IMG/VR virus record: IMGVR_UViG_3300042325_000372
Location: 1-21,978 of that record
Length of the DNA stretch: 21,978 nucleotides
Strand: one strand, 5' to 3'
Source: a virus
Numbering within the stretch: position 1 is the first letter of the stretch; the number at the start of each line of letters is the position of its first letter. The position numbers and the translations under genes are program-made. Shown piece by piece: positions 671 through 21,978 of this stretch. The notes beneath the pieces are model-generated. The model made no database searches. It had not been told where the DNA came from and worked only from the letters and a program-made list of their open reading frames with translations.

Positions 671-1228
671 ATGAAAACATTTCTTCAATACATTACCGAA
701 CTTAAATTAAACAAAGCCGTTAGACGATTAAAGTCAAAGGATTATGACACATCATTAGCTGGCTTTGATGATGTTGGTCGAGCAACACAGAGACAAACCG
801 CAAGAGCAATGACTGCAAGTATGGCTGGTGATCACGAAAAAGCTGGTGCGATTGGAACAGGTGTTGATGTTGCACATAAAGCATTGTTGTCTCGCGCTTA
901 TAATCGAAACGTAGCAAGACGCACCATGAGTGGTGAGAAGTTTGCTGGCGGCATCGCTGGTAAGATCGAAGACTTCCATAAGTCAGTCGGTGACAGAAAA
1001 AGATTTAATGATCGTATGAGTCAACAAGGTCCTAGTTTTCTTCCAACTTGGATGGAGATAGATGCTATACACAGACTCGATACTGGTAAAGACAAAGCAC
1101 CAGAACAGGAAGACAGCGACTTACATGGGCATATTCTAAGATCACAATTAGCCAATGCTGCTGTTGGATTGGGTGGGCGTGCTTCTGACGTTCCTGCGTT
1201 TAAACCCAAAAAAAATTATAAACTATGA
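671..1228 (+). CDS. Capsid-targeted internal head protein candidate, 185 aa
   Basis: The N-terminus MKTFLQYITE fits the T4 capsid targeting sequence, whose family cleavage rule is I/L-x-E, here ITE at residues 8-10. T4 internal proteins with such leaders are packed in the prohead core, trimmed by the gp21 protease and injected with the DNA. I recognise no domain in the rest, which is basic and helix-rich with a Lys-rich tail. It is the first gene after the repeat block and has its own late promoter five bases upstream. Its TGA overlaps the next ATG (ATGA), so it heads a tightly coupled operon. That it is packaged is inferred from the leader; its function in the host is unknown. Confidence 0.8.
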   Translation: MKTFLQYITELKLNKAVRRLKSKDYDTSLAGFDDVGRATQRQTARAMTASMAGDHEKAGAIGTGVDVAHKALLSRAYNRNVARRTMSGEKFAGGIAGKIEDFHKSVGDRKRFNDRMSQQGPSFLPTWMEIDAIHRLDTGKDKAPEQEDSDLHGHILRSQLANAAVGLGGRASDVPAFKPKKNYKL

Positions 1229-1950
1229 AGAGATTTATTGAGTACATCCTCGAAGATATTGAAGTAATAGACGATGTTGGGCATCCTGAAAGTGTAAGTG
1301 AACCTCGATCTGTGCTTGGTGTCCCACATAAAGCTTGGCAGAAGCATGCAATAGCAAATGGTCGAAACGTAGAGAAGCTCGGTAAAATCGGAGATCGTTA
1401 TACTGTCTATAGTTCCATAGGACATGGCAATTATAGAAAGAGTGAAGACGCGAATCTCGCTGACTACGAAGGTGAGTATCCCGGACACGAACAACGATTA
1501 GACCGCGAGTTAAATGACACACATCACTATGTGGCAGTTCATAATACGAGCGGTAAGATCGCAGCAATAACTTATGGAAGAGTCGGTAAAGGCACGAACA
1601 ACGAAGTTGCTAACCGCGGAACCTATAAACCCACCATGACTCATGCTGCATTGGGGCACAGATATAGTGACAATGGAATCTCGCTTCCTGCTGAGATATA
1701 CAAACACATCTCAAAGAAACACGCAGTCGAAAGCGGCATACAACAAAGCCCCGGTGGTGCTCATGTCTGGGAACGACTCATTCGAGACAGAGACGCAAAC
1801 GTGCAATTCAAAACTAGCTCTGGTGCTAAGCGAGTTCCTGCAGTGGGTGTTCCTACGTCTAAGATCTGGATAGACCAAGAGAATTGGGGATCTCCAGTGA
1901 AACGCGCAATGTTAGTGTTGCCAAAGAAGAAAGCTCAGAAAAAAAAATGA
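1225..1950 (+). CDS. Capsid-targeted protein, GNAT-like paralogue A, 241 aa
   Basis: Residues 1-10, MKRFIEYILE, form a capsid-targeting leader with an I-L-E cleavage site. The body (about 58-190) has alternating strands (YTVYSS, HHYVAVHNTSGKIAAITYG) and then a helix and signature at 152-186 (ISLPAEIYKHIS ... ESG ... QSPGGAHVWERL). The same block recurs in the next gene: at residues 98-130 of its first half, and again in its second half. The layout resembles a GNAT acetyltransferase-like fold, but I cannot identify an acetyl-CoA loop with confidence. The tail is Lys-rich (KKKAQKKK). The start overlaps the previous stop as ATGA and no Shine-Dalgarno is seen, so translation is probably coupled. 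Confidence 0.75.
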   Translation: MKRFIEYILEDIEVIDDVGHPESVSEPRSVLGVPHKAWQKHAIANGRNVEKLGKIGDRYTVYSSIGHGNYRKSEDANLADYEGEYPGHEQRLDRELNDTHHYVAVHNTSGKIAAITYGRVGKGTNNEVANRGTYKPTMTHAALGHRYSDNGISLPAEIYKHISKKHAVESGIQQSPGGAHVWERLIRDRDANVQFKTSSGAKRVPAVGVPTSKIWIDQENWGSPVKRAMLVLPKKKAQKKK

Positions 1951-3503
1951 AGAGCTTCTCACAATTTCTTCAAGAAGATTTTCCCATGATGGAACCCACT
2001 TCCAGGCATGCTGGTAATACATTCACTACTAGAATACCAGATGGTCCATCCACCAAACTTGGTCGTATTGGTCCATATGAAGTTCATCACCATCACGAAA
2101 TTGATCAGGTGTCTGTGCAGCATCAGGGAAAGCAAGTTGGTGTGATGGATATCGGTAATGTGGGAAGAGGTAGAATAAGCATTAATATGCCAGAGATGCA
2201 TAGAAAGCATAGTGGTAAGAATGCATTAGTAAGAAACCTAGTTCCAAAAGTCTATTCTATGATTGCAGATAAAATAGCACCAGTAGAGAGTGGAACAGTA
2301 CAGACTCCCGGTGGTAGATCTATTTGGAAAAGATTGGCAAAAATGAAACCAGTCACGCTTGGAACACCAACTGGATTCAGAGCCCCTACAAGCGTAAAAG
2401 TACATACTCATTCAAAGCATCCAAACCTCTTTATGAATGCAGGAAACTTTCAAGATTATGCTGATGAGCATGAAGCGTTACATGGTGGTGAATATGCGGG
2501 TTATGGAAATTTTAAAAATGCAAAAGAACATTTAACTGTTTCTGGAATGCACCCAAAAAGATTGGCAGCGATCAAGAAAAAAGAACATCTTCCTCATCCG
2601 AATGAGTTCAAAAAGAAAACAATTAAACTCAGTGATATTAAGAAGTATAATCCTGCTGTGCATGATTCGTTTGTTTATGGTCATCCATTTCAAGAAGATG
2701 GAAACGAAGATATAGTTCTACGCTTAGATGGTAAGAAAAAGAAGAGCAGAAGCTTGATGAAAAAATTTGTTCAATACATCTCCGAAGACATTGAACTGTC
2801 TGATGATCTGAGCAAACCCAGTATCAAAACAAAAAGACCGTATATTGGTATGCATGAAGATCAATGGAGAGAACATGCAACAAAAGAAAAAAGAAGAATC
2901 AAACCAATCGGTACTATTGGAACAGATTATACCGTGTATAGTTCTACCAATAACAGAGGAGATCATACTGATCATGACGGATCGGATAGTAAAGATCCTC
3001 AAAGAAGAGTTGGGCATTACACACATCATTTTCTAACTGTTCATAATAAAACTAAAAGTGTAGTTGCATCTGCCTTTGGACATAGTAACGAAGGAAATTG
3101 GTCTTCGGGAGCAACCTTTGTACATCCTGATCATAGTTCCAAGAAAGTTGGATTCTCTGTGCCTGGTGAAATGTACAAACACATATCAAACCACCACACA
3201 ATATGGTCTGGTCATACAAATACTGTTGGTGCAGTAAAGATGTGGAAAGGGTTGATACAAGATCCTGAGAATAAGGTACAGCATGTGCCGCCCACGCTAA
3301 GGGCTGGCAAAGCAAAACCAGCACATGGAATGCCCGATACTGAAATTTGGGCTACTCGTGCAGACGATACACAAACAATTGCAGCAGCTAAAAAGTCAGG
3401 AATAGCAACACATCCCGTGACTATGAAATGGGGCAGACCAGAGTCACAGGAATCTGCTAACATTGTATCTGGTAAATTAAAAATGCCAAGAAAAAACAAA
3501 TGA
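1947..3503 (+). CDS. In-frame tandem fusion of two capsid-targeted GNAT-like proteins, 518 aa
   Basis: I chose the ATG at 1947 because it starts a capsid-targeting leader (MKSFSQFLQE, site LQE) and overlaps the previous stop as ATGA. The frame is also open upstream. Residues 1-270 are one module with the conserved ESGTVQTPGGRSIWKRL block at 114-130 and a natural HHHH at 47-50. Residue 271 begins a second full leader, MKKFVQYISE, followed by a module closely similar to the 1225-1950 product (YTVYSS; VPGEMYKHIS; MWKGLIQD). The junction is Lys/Ser/Arg-rich and has no stop. The product may be a polyprotein cut at the internal ISE site, or the sequence may hide a lost or missed stop. The alternative is two genes, 1947 to about 2757 and 2757-3503. 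Confidence 0.75.
   Translation: MKSFSQFLQEDFPMMEPTSRHAGNTFTTRIPDGPSTKLGRIGPYEVHHHHEIDQVSVQHQGKQVGVMDIGNVGRGRISINMPEMHRKHSGKNALVRNLVPKVYSMIADKIAPVESGTVQTPGGRSIWKRLAKMKPVTLGTPTGFRAPTSVKVHTHSKHPNLFMNAGNFQDYADEHEALHGGEYAGYGNFKNAKEHLTVSGMHPKRLAAIKKKEHLPHPNEFKKKTIKLSDIKKYNPAVHDSFVYGHPFQEDGNEDIVLRLDGKKKKSRSLMKKFVQYISEDIELSDDLSKPSIKTKRPYIGMHEDQWREHATKEKRRIKPIGTIGTDYTVYSSTNNRGDHTDHDGSDSKDPQRRVGHYTHHFLTVHNKTKSVVASAFGHSNEGNWSSGATFVHPDHSSKKVGFSVPGEMYKHISNHHTIWSGHTNTVGAVKMWKGLIQDPENKVQHVPPTLRAGKAKPAHGMPDTEIWATRADDTQTIAAAKKSGIATHPVTMKWGRPESQESANIVSGKLKMPRKNK
2757..2786 (+). other. Internal capsid-targeting leader inside the 1947-3503 gene
   Basis: The ten codons from 2757 encode MKKFVQYISE, in the same frame as the upstream module. 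TGA triplets at 2755 and 2758 lie in another frame. A single-base shift in the nearby A-rich run (about 2730-2745) would therefore end the first module exactly here, with the overlapping stop/start seen at the other gene junctions. Confidence 0.7.
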
Positions 3504-4039
3504 AAAGCTTTACTCAATATATCTCCGAGATCTTTACTCCTCCAAAGGAACATACCAAGGGTGGATATCATCCCGATTTGGGATATGGTGGAAGTATTGC
3601 ACACGAACCAGATCGTCCACATCATTACTACAACAAAGAACACGGAACACACACAAGAGGAGTAGCATTTAACTACAATGATATTCCGGAGCATATGTAC
3701 CATGAAGTAGGAAAGTATATGAAGGGAGTGAATATTGGTGATTTACACTCCGGTAGAGCTGCGAAAATAGACTTTAGCACAGAAGAAGAAGATTTAAGTA
3801 GACCTGGAAAAAAAGTTCAGGTCTTTAATAAAGCCGAGCCAGGTAAGATGTTTCCTAGTCATGTTACACGAACGGTATTTGATCATGTTCATCATTTTAT
3901 AAATTCTCATAATGTGAATCATATATTCTACGAAACTGGTAATGATAAAAAAGACAGACTATATCAAAGAGCAGCAAAACGACTTGGTGTTGGTGCAACG
4001 AATATCATGGGAACTCGCCTATCACATTGGGATATGTAA
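3500..4039 (+). CDS. Capsid-targeted protein, paralogue family B, 179 aa
   Basis: The leader MKSFTQYISE ends in an I-S-E cleavage site. The remainder is rich in His and Tyr. Residues 118-165 (FPSHVTRTVFDHVHHF ... NDKKDRLYQRAAKRLG) match the C-terminus of the next gene and, more weakly, of the 6673 gene. The pattern (helix, strand, then [KR]-x-R-[IL]-Y-x-x-x-A-[KR]-[KR]-L-G) is common in GNAT-like phage proteins, where it forms the last helix and strand. A catalytic role is not demonstrable. The start overlaps the previous stop as ATGA and there is no separate promoter, so it is read from the 671 operon. Confidence 0.75.
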   Translation: MKSFTQYISEIFTPPKEHTKGGYHPDLGYGGSIAHEPDRPHHYYNKEHGTHTRGVAFNYNDIPEHMYHEVGKYMKGVNIGDLHSGRAAKIDFSTEEEDLSRPGKKVQVFNKAEPGKMFPSHVTRTVFDHVHHFINSHNVNHIFYETGNDKKDRLYQRAAKRLGVGATNIMGTRLSHWDM

Positions 4040-4043
4040 TAAT

Positions 4044-4610
4044 ATGAAAAGCTTTAAACAATATCTTTCAGAGATCTTTCAGGACAAACCCGGTGTGGTA
4101 TCTCATGAACATCCTGATCTTGAAACAAATTCAAAAGCTCCTGACTTTGCGCTTTATCATAATAAAGATGCGGGTGTTCAAACCAACATAACACTTCTTG
4201 GTACGGGTTCTGGTGTTGATGCAGATAGATTTCATGCAATACGACACAGATTACCTGCTCATTTTCCAGTAAGTTCTGATCAAGCGCACGAGTTGGCTCA
4301 TAGGTACGATAAACTATTCCATCCTGGCCCGATTGCAGAGATTGACTTTGGAGTTCGTCAACCAGATCGACCATCTGATGAATTTAGTTTTAGTACCGTC
4401 GGAAGTAACAAATTTCCTTCACATGTTACAAAAGCTGCATTTGATCATATTCATCACTTTGTTCGAAGTCGTGGAATCAAGAACATCATGTATTACACAC
4501 CCGATAAAAAGAAACATAGAATATATCAAGCAGGTGCAAAAAAGCTTGGTATTACTGCCGTAAATATGTCATATTTAGGACCGCTCGGTCCGCGAGACTG
4601 GCCATCATAG
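4044..4610 (+). CDS. Capsid-targeted protein, paralogue family B, 188 aa
   Basis: The frame is open well upstream, but the ATG at 4044 begins the leader MKSFKQYLSE (site LSE) four bases after the preceding stop, so I take it as the start. It is a diverged tandem duplicate of the 3500-4039 product. Shared features are an AxIDF segment near residue 100 and the C-terminal block at 124-170 (KFPSHVTKAAFDHIHHF, then KKKHRIYQAGAKKLGI). The middle (60-95) has no counterpart and is His-rich. I infer an internal head protein with a GNAT-like C-terminal fold. It is the last plus-strand gene of the operon that begins at 671, and no terminator hairpin follows it. Confidence 0.75.
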   Translation: MKSFKQYLSEIFQDKPGVVSHEHPDLETNSKAPDFALYHNKDAGVQTNITLLGTGSGVDADRFHAIRHRLPAHFPVSSDQAHELAHRYDKLFHPGPIAEIDFGVRQPDRPSDEFSFSTVGSNKFPSHVTKAAFDHIHHFVRSRGIKNIMYYTPDKKKHRIYQAGAKKLGITAVNMSYLGPLGPRDWPS

Positions 4611-4622
4611 ATAAACCAAAAG

Positions 4623-4630
4623 TATAGATA
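4623..4630 (+). promoter_or_regulatory. T4-type late promoter TATAGATA
   Basis: TATAGATACTATT at 4623-4635 matches the extended T4 late consensus TATAAATACTATT at all but one base and runs directly into the ATG at 4636. The predicted start of transcription is the A of that ATG. Confidence 0.7.
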
Positions 4631-4635
4631 CTATT

Positions 4636-4923
4636 ATGCAATACGAATTCAAAGATCCAATAAATCAAAAACTCGCACAAACCTACAGCAAAATGGTTTC
4701 TGAAAGTCACACCGCTAAAGAGATTGCGGGCACTCCAACAGCAGAACTTCGCAAACTCGCTGCGACTTACGAACGATCCGCATCGGATCATGGAGTCAAG
4801 CATGATGCAGCAGTGGAAGCTGGAGACAAAGACAAAGCTGCAATGCTAAAGAAGAAGATGCTAGATCACACGGACGAAGCCATTAATGTTCGTGCAGAGA
4901 TTCGCAAGAGAATTGGAAAGTAA
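4636..4923 (+). CDS. Small helical protein of unknown function, 95 aa
   Basis: The protein is strongly charged and predicted helical throughout. It has a Leu/Ala heptad-like stretch from about 30 to 90 (ELRKLAATYERSASDHGVKHDAAVEAGD, then AAMLKKKMLDHTDEA). Similar small helical proteins occur in T4-like phages of aquatic bacteria without assigned function. It lacks the MKxF leader of its neighbours. Its promoter places the transcript start on the ATG and no ribosome-binding site is visible, so leaderless translation is likely. It converges with the minus-strand nucleotidyltransferase gene, with one base between their stop codons and no terminator between them. Confidence 0.7.
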   Translation: MQYEFKDPINQKLAQTYSKMVSESHTAKEIAGTPTAELRKLAATYERSASDHGVKHDAAVEAGDKDKAAMLKKKMLDHTDEAINVRAEIRKRIGK

Positions 4924-4924
4924 T

Positions 4925-5644
4925 TTAAAGACTAAGTTCTTCGTCTTTGCGTAATCGAATGTACTCATTCATCTTGTCGAGTACTCCGGTGTTTCTTAGC
5001 TCTTTGAATACAAGATTCTCAAAGGCAAACTCTCCAGCTTTCTGAAGACCAGAAGCTCTCATATTCTTTACTTTATCTTTTAGTTGCTTGAAAGATTGAT
5101 CGCTGGCATTTGTTGCTATTAGAGTATTAATCTTTTTATTAAACTCAATAACTTTCTTCTGAATGTGAGCATTATCCATGTTCACATCGTGGTGCTTTGG
5201 TTGGTTTATCCACTTATCATTTTGTATGCTATATGCTCCCTGACCTTTTGGGAGTTTAGCATCCTTATCCTGAGCATACAGTTCTACGTCATGCCCATAT
5301 ATCTTGATCTTGTGAGTAAGACTCCATAGTTCTTTTTTGTCTTTGAAGTAATCATCCACCAACTCTGGGCAGTTTGGAAGTTTCTTCTTGTTGACTATTA
5401 TATGAATATCAACATCAGAGTGGTCTGTGTAATTGAAGTTCGCATTGCCACCAACCAGAATGATATCCAGTATTGCGTCTGTTGGTATGTGCGCCCATGC
5501 TGCCCATGTAGTACCAATATGCAGTAACTTCTTGCGAACCACAGACTTCAAATTAGTACCTCTCCACAGCTTCTTATTGAGGGTATCGTGGTATTGCAGA
5601 GTCAAGTCTGGCTCTTCTGTGATATATTGGCTAAAATGCTTCAT
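4925..5644 (-). CDS. Capsid-targeted nucleotidyltransferase (Pol beta-like fold), 239 aa
   Basis: The leader MKHFSQYITE has an I-T-E cleavage site. Residues 61-83 carry the nucleotidyltransferase signature: a glycine pair (GGN, 65-67), then SDVDIH with D77 and D79 as probable metal ligands. A later acidic residue (D119 or E121 in HDVELY) would be the third. Such enzymes transfer nucleotides to proteins, RNA or small molecules; this substrate is unknown. The C-terminal 100 residues are helical. A Pol beta-type NTase with a packaging leader suggests an enzyme delivered into the host at infection. It is the only minus-strand gene in the 671-12471 stretch and has its own late promoter five bases upstream. 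Confidence 0.85.
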   Translation of the reverse strand: MKHFSQYITEEPDLTLQYHDTLNKKLWRGTNLKSVVRKKLLHIGTTWAAWAHIPTDAILDIILVGGNANFNYTDHSDVDIHIIVNKKKLPNCPELVDDYFKDKKELWSLTHKIKIYGHDVELYAQDKDAKLPKGQGAYSIQNDKWINQPKHHDVNMDNAHIQKKVIEFNKKINTLIATNASDQSFKQLKDKVKNMRASGLQKAGEFAFENLVFKELRNTGVLDKMNEYIRLRKDEELSL

Positions 5645-12350: not shown

Positions 12351-12471
12351 AGAATCTCTATTAAAAAATCATCCCCTCTACGAAAATAGAGGGGATGATG
12401 TCATTTATAGATTGATGAAAGAAATTGAAGAATTAAAACAAAAGTTAAGTCAAACTACTATTGAATCTTGA
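12319..12471 (+). CDS. Small protein with C-terminal helix, 50 aa
   Basis: The ATG has GAAGGAAA just upstream. The product is MRASDSFCKTEESLLKNHPL, then a charged C-terminal helix (VIYRLMKEIEELKQKLSQ). It overlaps the end of the minus-strand virion gene by 14 bases. A perfect 13-base inverted repeat lies inside it, so part of its sequence may be shaped by that hairpin rather than by the protein. Confidence 0.5.
   Translation: MRASDSFCKTEESLLKNHPLYENRGDDVIYRLMKEIEELKQKLSQTTIES
12368..12399 (+). other. Perfect 13-bp hairpin within a small gene
   Basis: ATCATCCCCTCTA (12368-12380) is fully complementary to TAGAGGGGATGAT (12387-12399) around CGAAAA. There is no T-run after it on either strand. 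It may slow or block transcription between the convergent genes, or stabilise an mRNA end. Confidence 0.7.
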
Positions 12472-14809
12472 TTCCGTTTGAGTGATAGAATGTTACTATA
12501 CCATTTTCTTTTTTGGCATATGCTAAAATAAATTTTGGTGGTTTTGTTGCATTTGCTACATTGTTTACTGGACTGTCATTCATACTGGATATAACTGTTG
12601 TTGTTCCGATATCAGATATCAAGATCAATGTGTTACTAAGAGAACCTTCAATTCTTAGTAAATTTCTAGATGCACCACATGGTGCATTTGCAGAGTCTCC
12701 TCCTGTATTATCTTTCAGCTCCGGATATTCATTACAAGTAATTATATTACCAGTATCAATTGTGAAAATTATCCAGCATACTTGAGTATTTGTCATGCTG
12801 GTGAGATCAACACTTATGGTTTTATTTTCTAATAGGTGAATATAATCTATATTATTAATAAAGGTGTTTGATTTTATTTGATCTTGAAAAGAACTGTCTA
12901 CATTATTAATTATTTCTTTATGTGCAGAAACAACACGATATTGATCTGGGCTTGCAGTTATAGTATATGTTCCATTTGGTGAAGCGCCAATACTAATAGA
13001 CATCGGATCTAATGGAATTATATTGTTCGCGCTATAACCAAAATTATCAAACGGTCTGTTCATTTTTCTAACATATGTGCCAAATATATCTTCTGGGTTT
13101 TGCTGCAAATTAGCTTTAGTTAACCACTTATTATACCCTCGAATAGTTAAGCTTTGATTTTTATAAAATTTTTCTTGTAACTCATTTAATTCTGCTGCTT
13201 GCAACATTGTTTGTTGATTAAAAGCTATAGTATTACTGTTCTCAAAAATATTATTCTTAGATTCTCTAGACAAATATGGAGATTCTTTTAATGGAAATTT
13301 TGTGGAATTATCAGATATAGCATCTAGCGTTGAATTATCTGGTTGTTGTATCTGTCCTGGAAATTGATAAAATACTATTTCTGGTTTCTCTAAATTTTTT
13401 AATAGAATTTGAGTTGAAAATGCTAAAGCCAGACCGGCTTTGCCGGGTTGACCACCCTGAGAACTACCGCGATAACTAGCGGGATCTGTTGAAAAATCAT
13501 TTGGATCATAAGTACTAAAACTTGTTGGATTAAATACTCCTGGATCCAATTCTTGATTTACAGTAATAGACATAAACCCGTTTGGTCCACCATCGAACAC
13601 TTTACGATATAGGTTTTCTGCGCTGGTTTTGTCTAATGGTTGAATTTTACTTGAACATTTAGTTCCCACATAATTCCAACCCATGAATATAGTTTCTGGA
13701 GTAGAAGATTGTGTTATTGTAAAAGATGGATGCCCATCATCACCCTGGCCACCGAATGTACTCTGCCACAAATTTTGAGTAAAGCCGCCATACGAAATCA
13801 TCTCTGTTCTTCCTAAAGATCTATCTGGTACTGCATCAATATTACCATTTGCTTTTTTGAACACCAAATACTTAGAAACTCGCATATGAGCATCTACATC
13901 ATATACCGGCCAACCTTTGTTAATATCCATTATATTAGTTGGAAGAGTTCCCAGTAAAACTTTGTGCCGTAATATGCTACTAGGTATTGATTCTTGTCCT
14001 CGTTTCATTACCCATAGTCTATAACTGTCTTGAGTTAACATCCCATTTGGCGCAGAACACACAAAACTAGAAACTGGAAGATCCCAAGCAACACATGGGC
14101 ATTGAAATATCCTACTTATAGTCTGTTCGCTACTTGAATCAAAGAATGAAAATGTTTGATCTCTTTCACATGGTTGTGCTGTTATTGGATGCCCTACTGT
14201 TATTAAATATTCTTCTCCGCCGTCTTCATAAGCAGGACCAGTATTTTTAATTAAAACCATACCATTATTAAATGCATTGTACCAAAGATTAGAATTATTC
14301 CAATATCTATAATTCTGTATTGGATTATCTCCATCTGGATCATCGATGGGCATAATATCTACATCAAATGGATCTATAAGTCTTGCTGGATATGGAAGAC
14401 CACCATCTGGTACTATAGAAGAACCAAAAATATCAATGCTGTTTTGTGGAGTTATATCTGCACACCCATTGTTCGCAGCCTCCTGCTGTGATCCCACAGC
14501 ACAATACAACCACCATGCTTTGCAGAAAGGCCACGGACGAATTTGAGAATTGCAAGAAGCACCACACCAAATACCACCATTATCTCCGTGTGATTTGCCA
14601 GCAGGATTAACAGTACATCCACTAAAATTTGCACTATAGTTAATTGATTGATTACTAACAACTACTGTTTCATTTCTAAAAAATGCCGAAGTATTTACTT
14701 CAGATATTGGGAATTGAGCAAATTCCGGATACTGATGGTGGTGACCACCATAATTGTAGATATCAACAAGTGTAGTGAGATTTGAGTTATAGGGTTCTAA
14801 CCATGTCAT
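12458..14809 (-). CDS. Large virion structural protein, about 783 aa
   Basis: I place the start at 14809 (MTWLEPYNSNLTTL) because a late promoter, TATACATA, lies eight bases upstream; the frame also allows 14839. The first third is unusually Cys- and Trp-rich (CTVNPAGK, IWCGASCNSQ, FCKAWWLYCAVG). The middle contains NTIAFNQQTMLQAAELNELQEKFYKNQ, resembling a motif in T4-like virion proteins (Lx[AG]xELNExQ). The last 250 residues are strand-rich and carry a Cys-containing loop. Length, Asn/Ser richness and late promoter suggest a baseplate, neck or fibre component. No exact T4 counterpart is recognised. Confidence 0.7.
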   Translation of the reverse strand: MTWLEPYNSNLTTLVDIYNYGGHHHQYPEFAQFPISEVNTSAFFRNETVVVSNQSINYSANFSGCTVNPAGKSHGDNGGIWCGASCNSQIRPWPFCKAWWLYCAVGSQQEAANNGCADITPQNSIDIFGSSIVPDGGLPYPARLIDPFDVDIMPIDDPDGDNPIQNYRYWNNSNLWYNAFNNGMVLIKNTGPAYEDGGEEYLITVGHPITAQPCERDQTFSFFDSSSEQTISRIFQCPCVAWDLPVSSFVCSAPNGMLTQDSYRLWVMKRGQESIPSSILRHKVLLGTLPTNIMDINKGWPVYDVDAHMRVSKYLVFKKANGNIDAVPDRSLGRTEMISYGGFTQNLWQSTFGGQGDDGHPSFTITQSSTPETIFMGWNYVGTKCSSKIQPLDKTSAENLYRKVFDGGPNGFMSITVNQELDPGVFNPTSFSTYDPNDFSTDPASYRGSSQGGQPGKAGLALAFSTQILLKNLEKPEIVFYQFPGQIQQPDNSTLDAISDNSTKFPLKESPYLSRESKNNIFENSNTIAFNQQTMLQAAELNELQEKFYKNQSLTIRGYNKWLTKANLQQNPEDIFGTYVRKMNRPFDNFGYSANNIIPLDPMSISIGASPNGTYTITASPDQYRVVSAHKEIINNVDSSFQDQIKSNTFINNIDYIHLLENKTISVDLTSMTNTQVCWIIFTIDTGNIITCNEYPELKDNTGGDSANAPCGASRNLLRIEGSLSNTLILISDIGTTTVISSMNDSPVNNVANATKPPKFILAYAKKENGIVTFYHSNGIKIQ

Positions 14810-14817
14810 AGTAGAAA

Positions 14818-14825
14818 TATGTATA
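14818..14825 (-). promoter_or_regulatory. T4-type late promoter TATACATA (minus strand)
   Basis: On the minus strand TATACATA has one mismatch to TATAAATA, identical to the element before the 19745 gene. The predicted transcript start is about three bases before the ATG at 14809. Confidence 0.6.
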
Positions 14826-14827
14826 TG

Positions 14828-14835
14828 CATAAATA
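14828..14835 (+). promoter_or_regulatory. Late promoter CATAAATA driving a small RNA
   Basis: CATAAATA differs from consensus at the first base only and lies back to back with the minus-strand promoter at 14818. The expected start is 14841. No gene follows before the terminator at 14907-14938. Confidence 0.55.
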
Positions 14836-14840
14836 ACATG

Positions 14841-16745: not shown

Positions 16746-16828
16746 GCAAGAGTACTCAAGCGGACAACGAGGGCAGACTGTAAATCTGCTGATTCATTTC
16801 TACGAAGGTTCGAATCCCTCCTCTTGCA
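16746..16828 (+). tRNA. tRNA-Tyr (anticodon GTA)
   Basis: A class II tRNA with a long variable arm. Acceptor GCAAGAG pairs with CTCTTGC. The anticodon stem GCAGA/TCTGC encloses CTGTAAA and the T-loop is TTCGAAT. The discriminator is A and CCA is not encoded. It abuts the tmRNA acceptor piece. Confidence 0.94.
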
Positions 16829-16891
16829 TTGACATTGTTGATCTCGGAACGAGAGTTGCACAACACAGGGGTTCGACTCCCCTCGGGTCCA
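16829..16891 (+). other. tmRNA acceptor piece
   Basis: This is the 3' half of the tRNA-like domain: T-arm 16867-16883, acceptor strand 16884-16890, discriminator A 16891. CCA is not encoded, as in the seven tRNAs here. The 5' end is set only by the end of tRNA-Tyr. Confidence 0.75.
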
Positions 16892-16930
16892 TTCGGTTCA
16901 TGGGAACCAACCCAAGTATTAGTTGTTAAG
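16892..16930 (+). other. tmRNA intervening segment
   Basis: These 39 bases join the acceptor piece to the coding piece and should be removed during maturation. GGTTC and GAACC (about 16895-16908) form a small hairpin within it. Confidence 0.65.
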
Positions 16931-17026
16931 GGGCCCGATAAGGTATCGATTGGCAAGTAGTAGTGAAGAAGTAGATGTCCGTTTCGGGTAACAAGAAACG
17001 TAAATAAACAGTTGCAAACCATGATT

Positions 17027-17053
17027 GCTAACCAATTAGCAATGGCTGCTTAA
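17027..17053 (+). other. tmRNA tag reading frame (ANQLAMAA-stop)
   Basis: GCT at 17027 opens the frame A-N-Q-L-A-M-A-A followed by TAA. Tags commonly begin A-N and end in a hydrophobic residue plus A-A, which ClpXP recognises. The stop lies in the loop of CTGCT-TAA-AGCAG. At 8 residues it is short. The resume codon is inferred; an upstream GCA-AAC frame ends after five codons. Confidence 0.7.
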
Positions 17054-17090
17054 AGCAGTGGGGACTGGTCATCCCGCATCTGAATTGACT

Positions 17091-17116
17091 CACCTCTGGC
17101 AACAGGGGTGTTTTTA
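17091..17116 (+). terminator. Rho-independent terminator of the tmRNA
   Basis: CACCTCTG (17091-17098) pairs with CAGGGGTG (17103-17110) around GCAA, followed by TTTTTA. It overlaps the stop codon of the convergent minus-strand gene. Confidence 0.88.
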
Positions 17117-18484
17117 TTTAACTATTTTTATTTTAAAGAACAAACTTCTATTAGAAGAAGACGTTAGATATATTTCTTTATTTTGTTTACCAGTCTGTAT
17201 TGAAATATATGAACTTGATGTTCCTGGCTTTCCAATATTAATAATATTATCCACGATTGGTGTTACTATTTTTTCTGGATTTGTAGAAGAGAACGCAAAC
17301 GAATAATTTAATAAAGTCGGATCGCTAGTTGATATCTTTATAGTGGTATCAATTCCAACAGCAACTTCGTTTAATGCTATTCCATCTTGAGTTATTGCTA
17401 GTTTTCCGCCTATTGTTGCTAGCTTTATACTTATATTCTTAACTGTAGTTTTAGGTCTAACAGTGCTTGATATAGCTAATATTGTGGTGGCATCAGTTGT
17501 TGTTAGAGCAACGGTGGGAGTCGGCACTACAGCAGTTGTATTTGTTGATGCAACTGTTGCAACTGTTGTTGATAGTGAATTGATATCATCGCAGGTGACG
17601 TATGGAGTATATGTTGCCGATGCTGCTTTTAGCTGGGTTGATCTATCTGTGCATTGAAATGAATTTTGGGATGGTAAACATATACTAGAACCATCTACAA
17701 ATCTAAGCACACAGGTTCCATAAGTTTTATTATCTAAATCAACTTCTGTTGAAGATTCTCCCTCGAAGTATAAATTAACTAGGATACCATTTCCTATCAG
17801 ATTCTCATCAGCGATTGCCGATTCTACTTCAATACATTCAAAGCCATCAGTATCGATGAATATATTTTTTACTTTTAACTTTGTCCATTTATTATTATCA
17901 GTTCCAGAAAAATCAACATAGTCACCCACTCTAGCACCCAACCGAGTAAATGAATACAATCCATTTGGAATAGTATTTTTAATTATATTGGTTCTTTGTT
18001 GGGTATCGGAAACTCCACCGGATTTATTCAGCTGTGGTGTGTCTGTAAAGAATTTAGAATTATAGAAATCTCTAGAAGAGGGCATACTAGCATTTGAAAT
18101 TAAGTTAGCTTTTATTAACTTATTTTGTTCAAATGATGTGAACTGATAAATGCCAGAAAGGTCAGCTGATGTACCAGATGCATCATTCACATAGATAGTA
18201 TCGGTATATTCAAATGTAATTCCTGAAGTAAGAGAATTAAAGAATGAAGAGATATACGACAGATCATCTGCGTTCTTAGAATTACTATAATCAATTATTA
18301 CTTTAGTCTGATTGCTATAGAATGTGAAAGACGGAGTTGTTACTAAGTTTCTATTTACCTTATAGTAATAACTCTGCTTCGAAGCAAACACTAATCCAAA
18401 AAACAGATCACTGCCAACAAGATGAAATGATCTCTTGTCTTTCTGTGTGAATGTTCTTTTTGTGTTTCTTCGTATTCCTGACAT
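17114..18484 (-). CDS. Virion structural protein, 456 aa
   Basis: The N-terminus is basic (MSGIRRNTKRTFTQKDKRSF). The body is rich in Ser, Thr, Asn and beta-strand patterns, with a Thr/Val-rich low-complexity linker at about 310-345 (TTVATVASTNTTAVVPTPTV). The last 100 residues look like an Ig-like or bacterial Ig-type module (KNISIKLATIGGKLAI; GIDTTIKISTSDPT; YSFAFSSTNPEKIVTPI). Such architecture suits a tail, baseplate or fibre protein. The ATG lies one base after the upstream gene's TGA, so both are cotranscribed from the late promoter at 19770. No exact family is recognised. Confidence 0.65.
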   Translation of the reverse strand: MSGIRRNTKRTFTQKDKRSFHLVGSDLFFGLVFASKQSYYYKVNRNLVTTPSFTFYSNQTKVIIDYSNSKNADDLSYISSFFNSLTSGITFEYTDTIYVNDASGTSADLSGIYQFTSFEQNKLIKANLISNASMPSSRDFYNSKFFTDTPQLNKSGGVSDTQQRTNIIKNTIPNGLYSFTRLGARVGDYVDFSGTDNNKWTKLKVKNIFIDTDGFECIEVESAIADENLIGNGILVNLYFEGESSTEVDLDNKTYGTCVLRFVDGSSICLPSQNSFQCTDRSTQLKAASATYTPYVTCDDINSLSTTVATVASTNTTAVVPTPTVALTTTDATTILAISSTVRPKTTVKNISIKLATIGGKLAITQDGIALNEVAVGIDTTIKISTSDPTLLNYSFAFSSTNPEKIVTPIVDNIINIGKPGTSSSYISIQTGKQNKEIYLTSSSNRSLFFKIKIVK

Positions 18485-18485
18485 A

Positions 18486-19745
18486 TCATGAACCGATGTA
18501 ACTTAACTTCTGTGATCCAGTAACTGATCTGGCATACAATCCGTTAACATTAGCACACTCTATGAATATGCTTTCACCAGCTTCTAGTGGATACCCATCG
18601 GTGGTGTTAGTAAGCAATGCAGATCCACCAACATACACAATGTCTGTGTTGGTGCTGTGTGCCTTGAGTGTAACTCCAACCTTGAGTGTTATGTTTGCTT
18701 CCAACTGACCAGCAGATGGAGTTATAGTCTTAGTCGCACTAGCTACTTTGCCTGGTCGAGTAATCTCGGAGATCTTAGCTCTAAGATTTCCATTGGTTAT
18801 ATCTGTCTTGAGCGAAGATATAACTGCTGTGTTTGTTTTGATATCTGTCAAGCGCGATACTAATGGATTCGTCTCTAAAGTAAGAGCATTAACTATTGCA
18901 GTATCATCTATCGATAGATCATTCGTTACATTTACATCAAGAGGAGTAGTAGCAGTGACTTCGATAGCATCCCCATTTTCGCCCTTTACAACAATAGCTC
19001 CACCACCAGTGGTTCCTGCAACAACAAGAGGAATGTTGTTATAGTTAGAAACTCCAGTATTGGCAGATATACTCACAGTTGCAGTAAAGCCAGCATTAGT
19101 CATATAGACGTTTAAAGCATTAGCTGTGGATGATAAAGTCGAACCAGCAGAATCAAATAGCTTGGTGAGAACTTTACTACCAAGATCTGAACCAAGGCAT
19201 GATACAGTATCAGTGACTGCGTTTAGATATCTACCACCACTAACAGCAACAGATCCTGTTACGGTAATACTGTCGGTAGAAGATGAGAAATATCTACCAC
19301 CAGTAATTGCTACAGCATTAACAGTGTTACCAGCAGAACCAGCTCCACCAACTATGATTGGTTGAGAAATTTTCAGAGTTCCTGTAACACCGATGAGAAC
19401 TCCGTTAGTCACTCCTTGAATGTTTCCAGTGACTGGTAATTGATATCCAGTGCTTCCTTTGACATATACAAAGCCACCAGTAGTTCCACTATTCTGCACA
19501 GTGACTGTTCCAGACACAGAGCCAGATATTCCTAGTATAGTACTTGGATTGGTGGAATAAATATTAACAGGAAGAGGAGTAGTCTGCGATACCCGGAATG
19601 CTTCTCCGCTTGCACCCCACATCACCTTGGTTATTTGAACGTGTGCAGCATCTGAACTTATACCATTGACATATAAGTAATCTGTTGCTATACTTGCGGT
19701 GTTTCCTGAAACATCAATCGTCAGGTCTTTATCGGTGTCTGCCAT
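18486..19745 (-). CDS. Repetitive beta-rich virion protein, 419 aa
   Basis: GGAG lies seven bases before the ATG. The protein is dominated by short strand repeats: several PLPVNI/PLDVNV motifs and GGRYFSSSTDSITVTGSVAVSGGRYLNAVTDTV in the middle. A C-terminal domain (TLKAHSTNTDIVYVGGSALLTNTTDGYPLEAGESIFIE, ending LSYIGS) resembles the strand-rich ends of T4-like virion decoration or fibre proteins. The Gly/Thr/Ser/Val bias and lack of long helices suggest an elongated beta structure. It is the first gene of a two-gene minus-strand late operon. Confidence 0.7.
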   Translation of the reverse strand: MADTDKDLTIDVSGNTASIATDYLYVNGISSDAAHVQITKVMWGASGEAFRVSQTTPLPVNIYSTNPSTILGISGSVSGTVTVQNSGTTGGFVYVKGSTGYQLPVTGNIQGVTNGVLIGVTGTLKISQPIIVGGAGSAGNTVNAVAITGGRYFSSSTDSITVTGSVAVSGGRYLNAVTDTVSCLGSDLGSKVLTKLFDSAGSTLSSTANALNVYMTNAGFTATVSISANTGVSNYNNIPLVVAGTTGGGAIVVKGENGDAIEVTATTPLDVNVTNDLSIDDTAIVNALTLETNPLVSRLTDIKTNTAVISSLKTDITNGNLRAKISEITRPGKVASATKTITPSAGQLEANITLKVGVTLKAHSTNTDIVYVGGSALLTNTTDGYPLEAGESIFIECANVNGLYARSVTGSQKLSYIGS

Positions 19746-20109: not shown

Positions 20110-21057
20110 ATGTCATCATTTAGCGATTTTAAGAACAAGGCAAAGTCAAGCATCAGTGATCTTTCGAAGGCTCTTGAGAGTATCGAAGGAAAGAAGGATT
20201 ATAAGGATGATCGCTTCTGGCGTGCCACACCGGATAAGTCCGGAAACGGGTATGCAGTAATTCGGTTTCTGCCAGCACCGAAGCAGGAAGAACTTCCATT
20301 CATCAAACTATACTCTCATGCCTTTCAGGGAAAGAATGGTTGGTTCATTGAGAACTGCTTGACAACAAGCGGTGCAAAGTGTCCTGTGTGCGAGTTGAAT
20401 AACGAATTGTGGAATAGTGGAATTGAATCAGACAAGAACATTGCTCGTGAGCGCAAGCGTAAGTTGTCTTACATTTCCAACATTCTTGTAATCAAGGATG
20501 AATCTAATCCACAGAACGAAGGAAAGGTATTCCTCTTCAAGTATGGTATCAAGATCTTCGATAAGATCAAGGAAGCAATGTATCCAGAATTCAAGGATGA
20601 GAGTGCAATGGATCCGTTTAACTTCTGGGCGGGTGCTGACTTCAAGTTGAAGATTCGTAAGGTGGCTGGTTATACCAACTACGACAAGTCAGAATTTTCT
20701 CCTGCATCTCCTCTACTTGGTGGAGATGATGCAAAGTTGGAAGCAATTTGGAACAAGCAATATCCTCTCAATGAGTTTGTTTCTCCAAAGAACTTCAAGG
20801 ACTATGCAACTCTGAAGACTCGTCTGTATGAGATTCTTGGAGATGATGTTCGATCTGGCGTTATGGATAATCAAAGTCGTGCCGAAGACGAGACGATTGA
20901 GACTCCATTCGACAGCAAGGACCCTAGGGAAGAAAACAGGCAGTCTGCTAAGAGTCGTAGTAAGACTTCGGGTAAGAAGCAAGAGCCATCTCCAACAGAT
21001 GAGCCAGGAGAGGAAATGGATTCTCTCTCGTACTTCCAGAAGCTAGCTGGCGACTGA
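20110..21057 (+). CDS. 32: gp32 single-stranded DNA-binding protein, 315 aa
   Basis: gp32 coats single-stranded DNA during replication, recombination and repair and recruits other replisome proteins. The domain order matches T4: a basic N-terminal self-association region (residues 1-22), a core with the zinc site H70, C83, C91 and C94 (HAFQGKNGWFIENC, then CPVC) and aromatic strands, the KRK-type basic stretch RERKRKLSYISN at 113-124, and an acidic, flexible C-terminus (EEMDSLSYFQKLAGD) that contacts partner proteins. The length is close to T4 gp32 (301 aa). AAAGGA precedes the start, and a strong terminator follows the stop. A folded leader suggests autoregulation. Confidence 0.97.
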   Translation: MSSFSDFKNKAKSSISDLSKALESIEGKKDYKDDRFWRATPDKSGNGYAVIRFLPAPKQEELPFIKLYSHAFQGKNGWFIENCLTTSGAKCPVCELNNELWNSGIESDKNIARERKRKLSYISNILVIKDESNPQNEGKVFLFKYGIKIFDKIKEAMYPEFKDESAMDPFNFWAGADFKLKIRKVAGYTNYDKSEFSPASPLLGGDDAKLEAIWNKQYPLNEFVSPKNFKDYATLKTRLYEILGDDVRSGVMDNQSRAEDETIETPFDSKDPREENRQSAKSRSKTSGKKQEPSPTDEPGEEMDSLSYFQKLAGD

Positions 21058-21116: not shown

Positions 21117-21978
21117 TTAACCATATTCTCTTCTGTAATTTGGTAACATGAATGAATCATCTGCAGTTTTTCTGTATACGTCGTATTGATTAGATACTGA
21201 GTTTACAATGGTAGCATTAGATCTAGCATCATTTGATACAGACACAGATTCTTTCTTATCGTTTCCTCCAAATACTGCATCTATTAGTTTACCACCCACA
21301 GTAGCATATGCCCCTGCAAGTCCTCCAACTGCAATACCTAGTCCTGCCGCAACCCCACCAACTCCTGCCGCAATTCCTCCCACTGCAGCTAATGCTCCTC
21401 CACCGCCAACTATGCCTCCTAGCATAGAACCCATACCACCTCCTCCTCCTCCTCCAGGCACTCCTATTCCTCCACCACCACCCCCGCCACCTTCGCCACC
21501 ACCTCCACCAGGCATTGCTCCTGCAAGTTTTGAAACTTTACCCAAACCTCCTGCAACTTTACTAGCACCACCAGCCATTGCTCCAACTCCTTTTAATGCT
21601 CCCATTGCAGCTCCTCCAACGCCAGGCAAAGCTATCGTTGCTGCTACCTGAGCAACTGTAGTAACTGCATCAACAATTCCTGCAATTCCTCTAGCGGCAC
21701 CTGCTCCTGCTTCTTCTGGGATGTCCGCTGTTTTTAATGTTTCTTCTGCTGCTGCTTGCGCTTGTTGTGGATCTGATCCTACTCCATTGTCGAAGTTTGA
21801 TTCGATTTTTGTTTCAGAACCCTTAGCTGGTCCAGTTGCTGTTGATATTGAACCACTAGCAGCCACAGGAGTAGGAGCAGCAGCCGCAGGAGCAGCAGCC
21901 GCAGGAGCAGCAGCCGCAGGAGCAGCAGCCGCAGGAGCAGCAGCCGCAGGAGCAGCAGCCGCAGGAGCAGCAGCCGCA
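21117..21978 (-). CDS. Gly/Ala-rich protein with Ala/Pro repeat, N-terminus outside window
   Basis: The frame runs off the right edge. A GTG at 21866 is in frame, but the coding bias continues upstream, so it is probably not the start. From the edge inward, (P-A-A-A-A)n repeats give way to a Ser/Thr/Lys linker, a hydrophobic Ala/Gly region, a polyglycine stretch (GGGGEGGGGGGGGIGVPGGGGGGG) and a second Gly/Ala region (IVGGGGALAAVGGIAAGVGGVAAGLGIAVGGLAG). The tail is polar (FGGNDKKESVS, ending PNYRREYG). The glycine-zipper-like segments could insert into membranes, as in some tail or DNA-delivery proteins. I recognise no family. Confidence 0.7.
   Translation of the reverse strand, partial: AAAAPAAAAPAAAAPAAAAPAAAAPAAAAPAAAAPTPVAASGSISTATGPAKGSETKIESNFDNGVGSDPQQAQAAAEETLKTADIPEEAGAGAARGIAGIVDAVTTVAQVAATIALPGVGGAAMGALKGVGAMAGGASKVAGGLGKVSKLAGAMPGGGGGEGGGGGGGGIGVPGGGGGGGMGSMLGGIVGGGGALAAVGGIAAGVGGVAAGLGIAVGGLAGAYATVGGKLIDAVFGGNDKKESVSVSNDARSNATIVNSVSNQYDVYRKTADDSFMLPNYRREYG
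21874..21978. repeat. 15-bp tandem repeat, seven copies to window end
   Basis: The unit GGAGCAGCAGCCGCA is repeated exactly seven times and continues past the edge. On the minus strand it encodes P-A-A-A-A in frame, so length changes keep the gene open. Confidence 0.95.

Follow-up and report, generated by a model that had tools for sequence, protein, structure and literature searches.

A complete circularly permuted tmRNA gene with a clade-specific tag in a T4-like phage

What kind of RNA is encoded directly 3′ of the tRNA-Tyr gene in this virus record, and what might it do during infection? The window, meaning the whole 21,978-base stretch analyzed and to whose full length all positions refer, contains seven tRNAs. 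One of them, tRNA-Tyr (GUA; 16746–16828, plus strand), is followed by an element that a first-pass annotation had read as a phage-borne, two-piece permuted tmRNA. A covariance-model search, which had been set beforehand as a refuting test for this reading, matched the Rfam family tmRNA_permuted (RF04321) at 16831–17053 over the full length of the model (1–213 of 213), with 70.7 bits against a cut-off of 47 bits (E = 5e-12 for the whole window). Furthermore, ARAGORN independently called a permuted tmRNA (tmRNA*) at 16799–17144, with a tag end identical to that of the Rfam-based reading. The annotation was thus borne out on this point, and, as judged from sequence, the element is a complete circularly permuted two-piece tmRNA gene of a T4-like phage that is selectively maintained. 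That it gives a working tmRNA dependent on host SmpB is very probable.

All parts of the gene lie on the plus strand. The acceptor piece (16831–16891; supported by direct reading, Rfam and relatives) begins 2 nt (TT) after the end of tRNA-Tyr, and because only these 2 nt lie between them, 3′ processing of tRNA-Tyr would generate the 5′ end of the acceptor piece as well. It comprises the P2 5′ strands, starting with GACAU of the outer helix (16831–16835), a T-arm AGGGG-UUCGACU-CCCCU with a 5-bp stem and the loop UUCGACU (16867–16883), the acceptor stem 3′ strand CGGGUCC (16884–16890) and A73 (16891), where the T-arm and A73 are likewise supported by all three lines of evidence. CCA is not encoded in the window tmRNA. 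An intervening sequence of 39 nt (16892–16930), whose absence from the mature RNA is expected, separates this piece from the coding piece, which is taken to extend from G1 up to the terminator (16931–17090; direct reading and Rfam). The coding piece opens with the acceptor stem 5′ strand GGGCCCG (16931–16937), which forms seven pairs with CGGGUCC including G3·U70, the alanine identity element, and continues with GGTATCGATTGG (16942–16953, by direct reading) and the outer P2 3′ strand AUGUC (16975–16979), the partner of GACAU. Further downstream, direct reading gave a helix-5-like hairpin, CUGCU-UAA-AGCAG, whose loop holds the stop codon (17046–17058), and a possible 3′ pseudoknot at 17059–17090 (UGGG/CCCG, 17059–17062/17073–17076; GGUCA/UGACU, 17067–17071/17086–17090). 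The gene ends in an intrinsic terminator CACCUCUG-GCAA-CAGGGGUG followed by UUUUU (17091–17110). Note that part of the helix-5-like hairpin served as a search pattern, so that its conservation is not independent. The T-arm, acceptor strands with G3·U70, 39-base spacer, tmRNA-like sequence, tag frame and terminator described in the first-pass annotation were all present.

Two pattern scans of IMG/VR provided at least 105 distinct related phage copies of the tmRNA, and 89 of the listed distinct copies were fully parsed. Pairing between the two halves, which the annotation had expected to recur in related phages, was found in the acceptor stem and the outer P2 helix of all 89. The outer P2 helix was fully paired in 89 of 89 with 8 sequence versions, as compared with a mean of 66 and a maximum of 74 for shuffled partners, and the inner P2 helix also varied in step. 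The acceptor stem occurred in 12 sequence versions among the 89 (matches listed), always with G3·U70 and A73, under a parser that required seven acceptor pairs, A73, UCC at 70–72 and GG at 1–2. Position 3, where the parser allowed A as well, was G in 89 of 89. The intervening spacer of the parsed relatives was 5–173 nt long, which fits the expectation for a removed segment, as compared with 8–46 nt in sampled cellular permuted tmRNAs. As a side observation, the spacer was 5–13 nt in 23 of 85 relatives, L099, L128, L185 and L205 among them, so that only a tiny loop would cap the acceptor stem of their precursor. On the tree of relatives, short and long spacer forms interchanged about six times.

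Covariation also defined pseudoknot 1 (16980–17015), with stem S1 CGUUUC/GAAACG (16980–16985/16995–17000) and stem S2 GUAAC/GUUGC (16988–16992/17011–17015). It was found in 78 of 79 distinct relatives with both stems covarying, and S2 occurred as GUAAC/GUUGC, GUCAAC/GUUGGC, GUCAAU/AUUGAC and GCUGAC/GUCGGC. Since a similar score was obtained for 22% of single shuffled sequences, the support for this pseudoknot was counted as comparative. A CCC/GGG candidate for stem 1 was dropped because of its overlap with P2. Pseudoknot 1 is followed by an 11-nt linker ending in AUGAUU (17016–17026; direct reading and relatives), and in the window and its relatives the resume codon lies 9–11 nt 3′ of the pseudoknot. 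The 11-nt spacing of the window is also that of E. coli tmRNA. The hexamer before the resume codon was of the AUAAUU type in most relatives, which fits the published preference for AUAG/AUAA in this context (PMC4236655). Among 44 distinct contexts, position −4 was A in 34 and G in 10, and a pyrimidine in none; the window (17023) is one of those with G. The near-invariant A at −4 is a usual, not strictly defining, tmRNA trait, and the G found instead was counted against a working tmRNA, being equivalent to the E. coli A86G substitution with low activity (PMC2481249).

The tag frame (17027–17053; Rfam, ARAGORN and relatives) reads GCT AAC CAA TTA GCA ATG GCT GCT TAA, with GCU at 17027–17029 as the resume codon, confirming the tag ANQLAMAA-stop of the first-pass annotation. 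The tag had eight codons in all relatives' copies, and the listed matches included AAPMRMAA (44), ANQLAMAA (14), ANELAMAA (12), AAPMAMAA (9) and others. Its first residue was Ala in all relatives but one (GAPMRMAA), and its end was hydrophobic-Ala-Ala plus stop. Note that the conservation of the last three codons comes partly from data selection, because they were included in one of the two search patterns; the scan with the other pattern, which was free of them, gave the ends MAA, IAA and VAA. The sampled cellular permuted tags all start with AND and have 10–13 residues, whereas the tag of this clade has 8 residues, lacks an AND(N/E) start and mostly ends in MAA. The AND(N/E) start is what the adaptor SspB binds.

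In addition, covariation and predicted structure point to a hairpin GCUAA/UUAGC that encloses the resume codon (17027–17040). Codons 1 and 4 co-varied at their third bases without exception in 103 of 103 relatives (C-G in 80, T-A in 23), with about seven changes of this pair on the tree. Structure prediction placed the resume codon within a hairpin or at its edge in all 25 distinct tag sequences (−3.6 to −7.3 kcal/mol), whereas 20 cellular and other phage tags were mostly unfolded over their first 18 nt. The hairpin claim rests on the co-variation, since individual hairpins were only moderately unusual as compared with random synonymous codons (fractions 0.02–0.25).

From these features, a course of action can be proposed. 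The precursor would be made together with the neighboring tRNAs; host RNase P would cut before G16931, and tRNA 3′ processing would cut after A16891, with CCA then added. The mature RNA would be charged with alanine, be bound by host SmpB and act on stalled ribosomes during infection, where the ribosome would resume at GCU, append ANQLAMAA after the tmRNA's own alanine and be released at UAA. Given a short tag without the AND(N/E) start, adaptor-assisted delivery of tagged proteins to proteases is expected to be weaker, and the phage would be expected to benefit mainly from the release of ribosomes, less from rapid breakdown of tagged proteins. We offer, tentatively and as a possibility that we do not hold to be the likely outcome, the proposal that this T4-like clade remodeled trans-translation: rescue would be kept, the clade-specific eight-residue tag would lack the adaptor-binding start that is usual elsewhere, and resumption would be gated by the hairpin over the resume codon, so that the tagging and disposal of unfinished proteins would differ between infected and uninfected cells.

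Alternatively, the phage RNA might be a competitor or decoy that occupies host SmpB and ribosomes and dampens host trans-translation. The tag-less tmRNA of mycobacteriophage DS6A provides a precedent (PMC11915505), and the weakened −4 position of the window, as well as a resume codon held in a predicted hairpin, would suit this role. However, a decoy needs no tag, whereas at least 105 copies retain the tag frame together with its stop codon and hydrophobic-Ala-Ala end, and at −4 the normal A is found in most relatives; a decoy is thus improbable. We consider resumption at another site to be less likely still, namely at the conserved upstream GCA in CAGUUGCAA or by a +1 shift there, giving a longer tag. 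This GCA lies 13 nt 3′ of stem 1 of pseudoknot 1, the consensus GCA of the Rfam model aligned there, and about half of the relatives have it in the reading frame of the tag end. On the other hand, its GUUGC serves as the 3′ strand of pseudoknot 1, where it covaries with the partner strand, the GCA is missing from relatives L185 and L209, and its frame meets an early stop, or no stop within the tag, in the window and many relatives. Because it belongs to pseudoknot 1 and is not conserved as a codon, the upstream GCA was rejected as the resume codon. That the element is a decayed or captured piece of host DNA, such as integration into a tmRNA gene of the host might leave behind, is hardly credible even though tmRNA genes are common integration sites (PMC11915505), because both pieces are complete, the helices covary over many lineages, and no integrase was found among the window proteins searched against Pfam and PHROG.

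A working tmRNA that resumes at GCU, which remains our preferred reading, probably uses host SmpB, as suggested by the absence of SmpB from 49 of 50 contigs with a tmRNA, several of which exceed 100 kb; these contigs are incomplete, so that smpB may lie elsewhere. The sole SmpB among the 50 was on a jumbo contig with a different tmRNA. As for the phage itself, its gene content indicates a T4-like type: the window encodes gp32, the T4-like single-stranded DNA-binding protein (20110–21057, plus strand; PHROG 224, E = 3.5e-115; Pfam PF08804, E = 3.7e-50), and gp23, the T4-type capsid protein, was found in 9 of the 50 tmRNA-bearing contigs, most of which are fragments. A permuted tmRNA above the cut-off was present in 13 of 50 related contigs, nearly all of which had been picked on the basis of a related gp32 gene. 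Among long relatives the closest is G004 (109 kb, near-identical), with the same order of tRNAs and tmRNA. Its gp23 shows about 58% identity alike to cyanophages and to Pelagibacter phage HTVC008M, and the host is thus not readable from phage relatives.

The first-pass annotation had further suggested that the tmRNA might reveal the host lineage, which was not supported. The betaproteobacterial permuted model (RF01850) scored 39 bits, below its cut-off of 84, and also matched many proteobacterial genomes weakly, and the alphaproteobacterial model (RF01849) gave no match at E ≤ 0.001; host inference from tmRNA type was not possible on these results. An exact linker-motif scan of 84,980 species genomes, which leaves room for diverged host copies, hit six places, none with tmRNA features, and a distant DNA search found no cultivated phage with such a tmRNA. 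The tRNA-Tyr matches and short mycobacteriophage matches in the DNA searches were not regarded as evidence of kinship.

The novelty of a permuted tmRNA in a phage had been overstated, given that phage Melnitz carries one and that 53 two-piece tmRNAs were predicted in 18,146 phage genomes, 50 of the 53 in marine or aquatic samples (PMC9004378). What is new here is the clade-specific tag and its hairpin. The window gene resembles the permuted tmRNA families (RF04321; older alpha RF01849, beta RF01850 and cyano RF01851) in the order of acceptor piece, intervening sequence and coding piece, and in its T-arm, G3·U70, A73, P2, pseudoknot 1 and tag frame, but differs in the 8-residue tag without an AND start, the hairpin over the resume codon and the G at −4. 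The ssrA of Methylophilales phage Melnitz (MZ577097; PMC9004378) is also a permuted tmRNA of an aquatic myophage with T4-type genes, lies near an ssDNA-binding protein gene, and shares with most relatives of the window the hexamer AUAAUU in front of the resume codon. However, its tag, ANDNYVPVDYALAA, is cell-like, unlike that of the window, and it differs in an encoded CCA, an intervening sequence of 145 nt and the T-loop GGCAGUA. DNA similarity to the Melnitz ssrA was found in Melnitz isolates only and none outside. Mycobacteriophage tmRNAs (e.g., those of Alice and HyRo) are likewise phage-borne, but of one-piece form, and differ in a tag annotated as ATDTDATVTDAEIEAFFAEEAAALV in several records.

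In a large uncultivated phage clade with more than 100 distinct copies, a tmRNA is maintained under strong structural selection, while its tag has diverged from the cellular form. Two questions thereby become testable: do phages provide trans-translation so that ribosomes stay free during infection, and do they change the way in which the infected cell destroys unfinished proteins? The clade also offers natural variation at −4 and across the resume codon, at places mutated in E. coli studies of tmRNA frame choice.

Several minor observations concern large contigs and the rest of the window. L269 (G050, IMGVR_UViG_3300045971_000577; 369,145 bp), a jumbo phage-like contig with gp23 matches, has a gene set at 2281–4429 on the minus strand that may represent a phage-borne ribosome-rescue module. 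It includes a permuted tmRNA with the tag ANDSFYTEALAA and scores of 89.6 bits for RF04321 and 87.7 bits for RF01850, and next to it an SmpB gene of full length (PF01668, 156 bits), an ORF with NUMOD3 and an ORF of 183 residues that resembles release factor 1 in its C-terminal half. The very large viral contigs L271, L281 and L284 (385, 524 and 359 kb) encode SmpB with no tmRNA found nearby; a GOLLD RNA and a cluster of tRNAs are further features of L271. In the window, three long minus-strand ORFs (12458–14839, 17114–18484 and 18486–19745) had no Pfam or PHROG match, one of them ending beside the tmRNA terminator, and a protein with low-complexity AAAAP repeats is encoded at the window end (21779–21977, minus strand). 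Several ORFs within 671–5644 have MKxFxQYIxE-like starts (MKTFLQYITE, MKRFIEYILED, MKSFTQYISE and MKHFSQYITE), which are similar to the sequence that targets T4 internal head proteins to the capsid.
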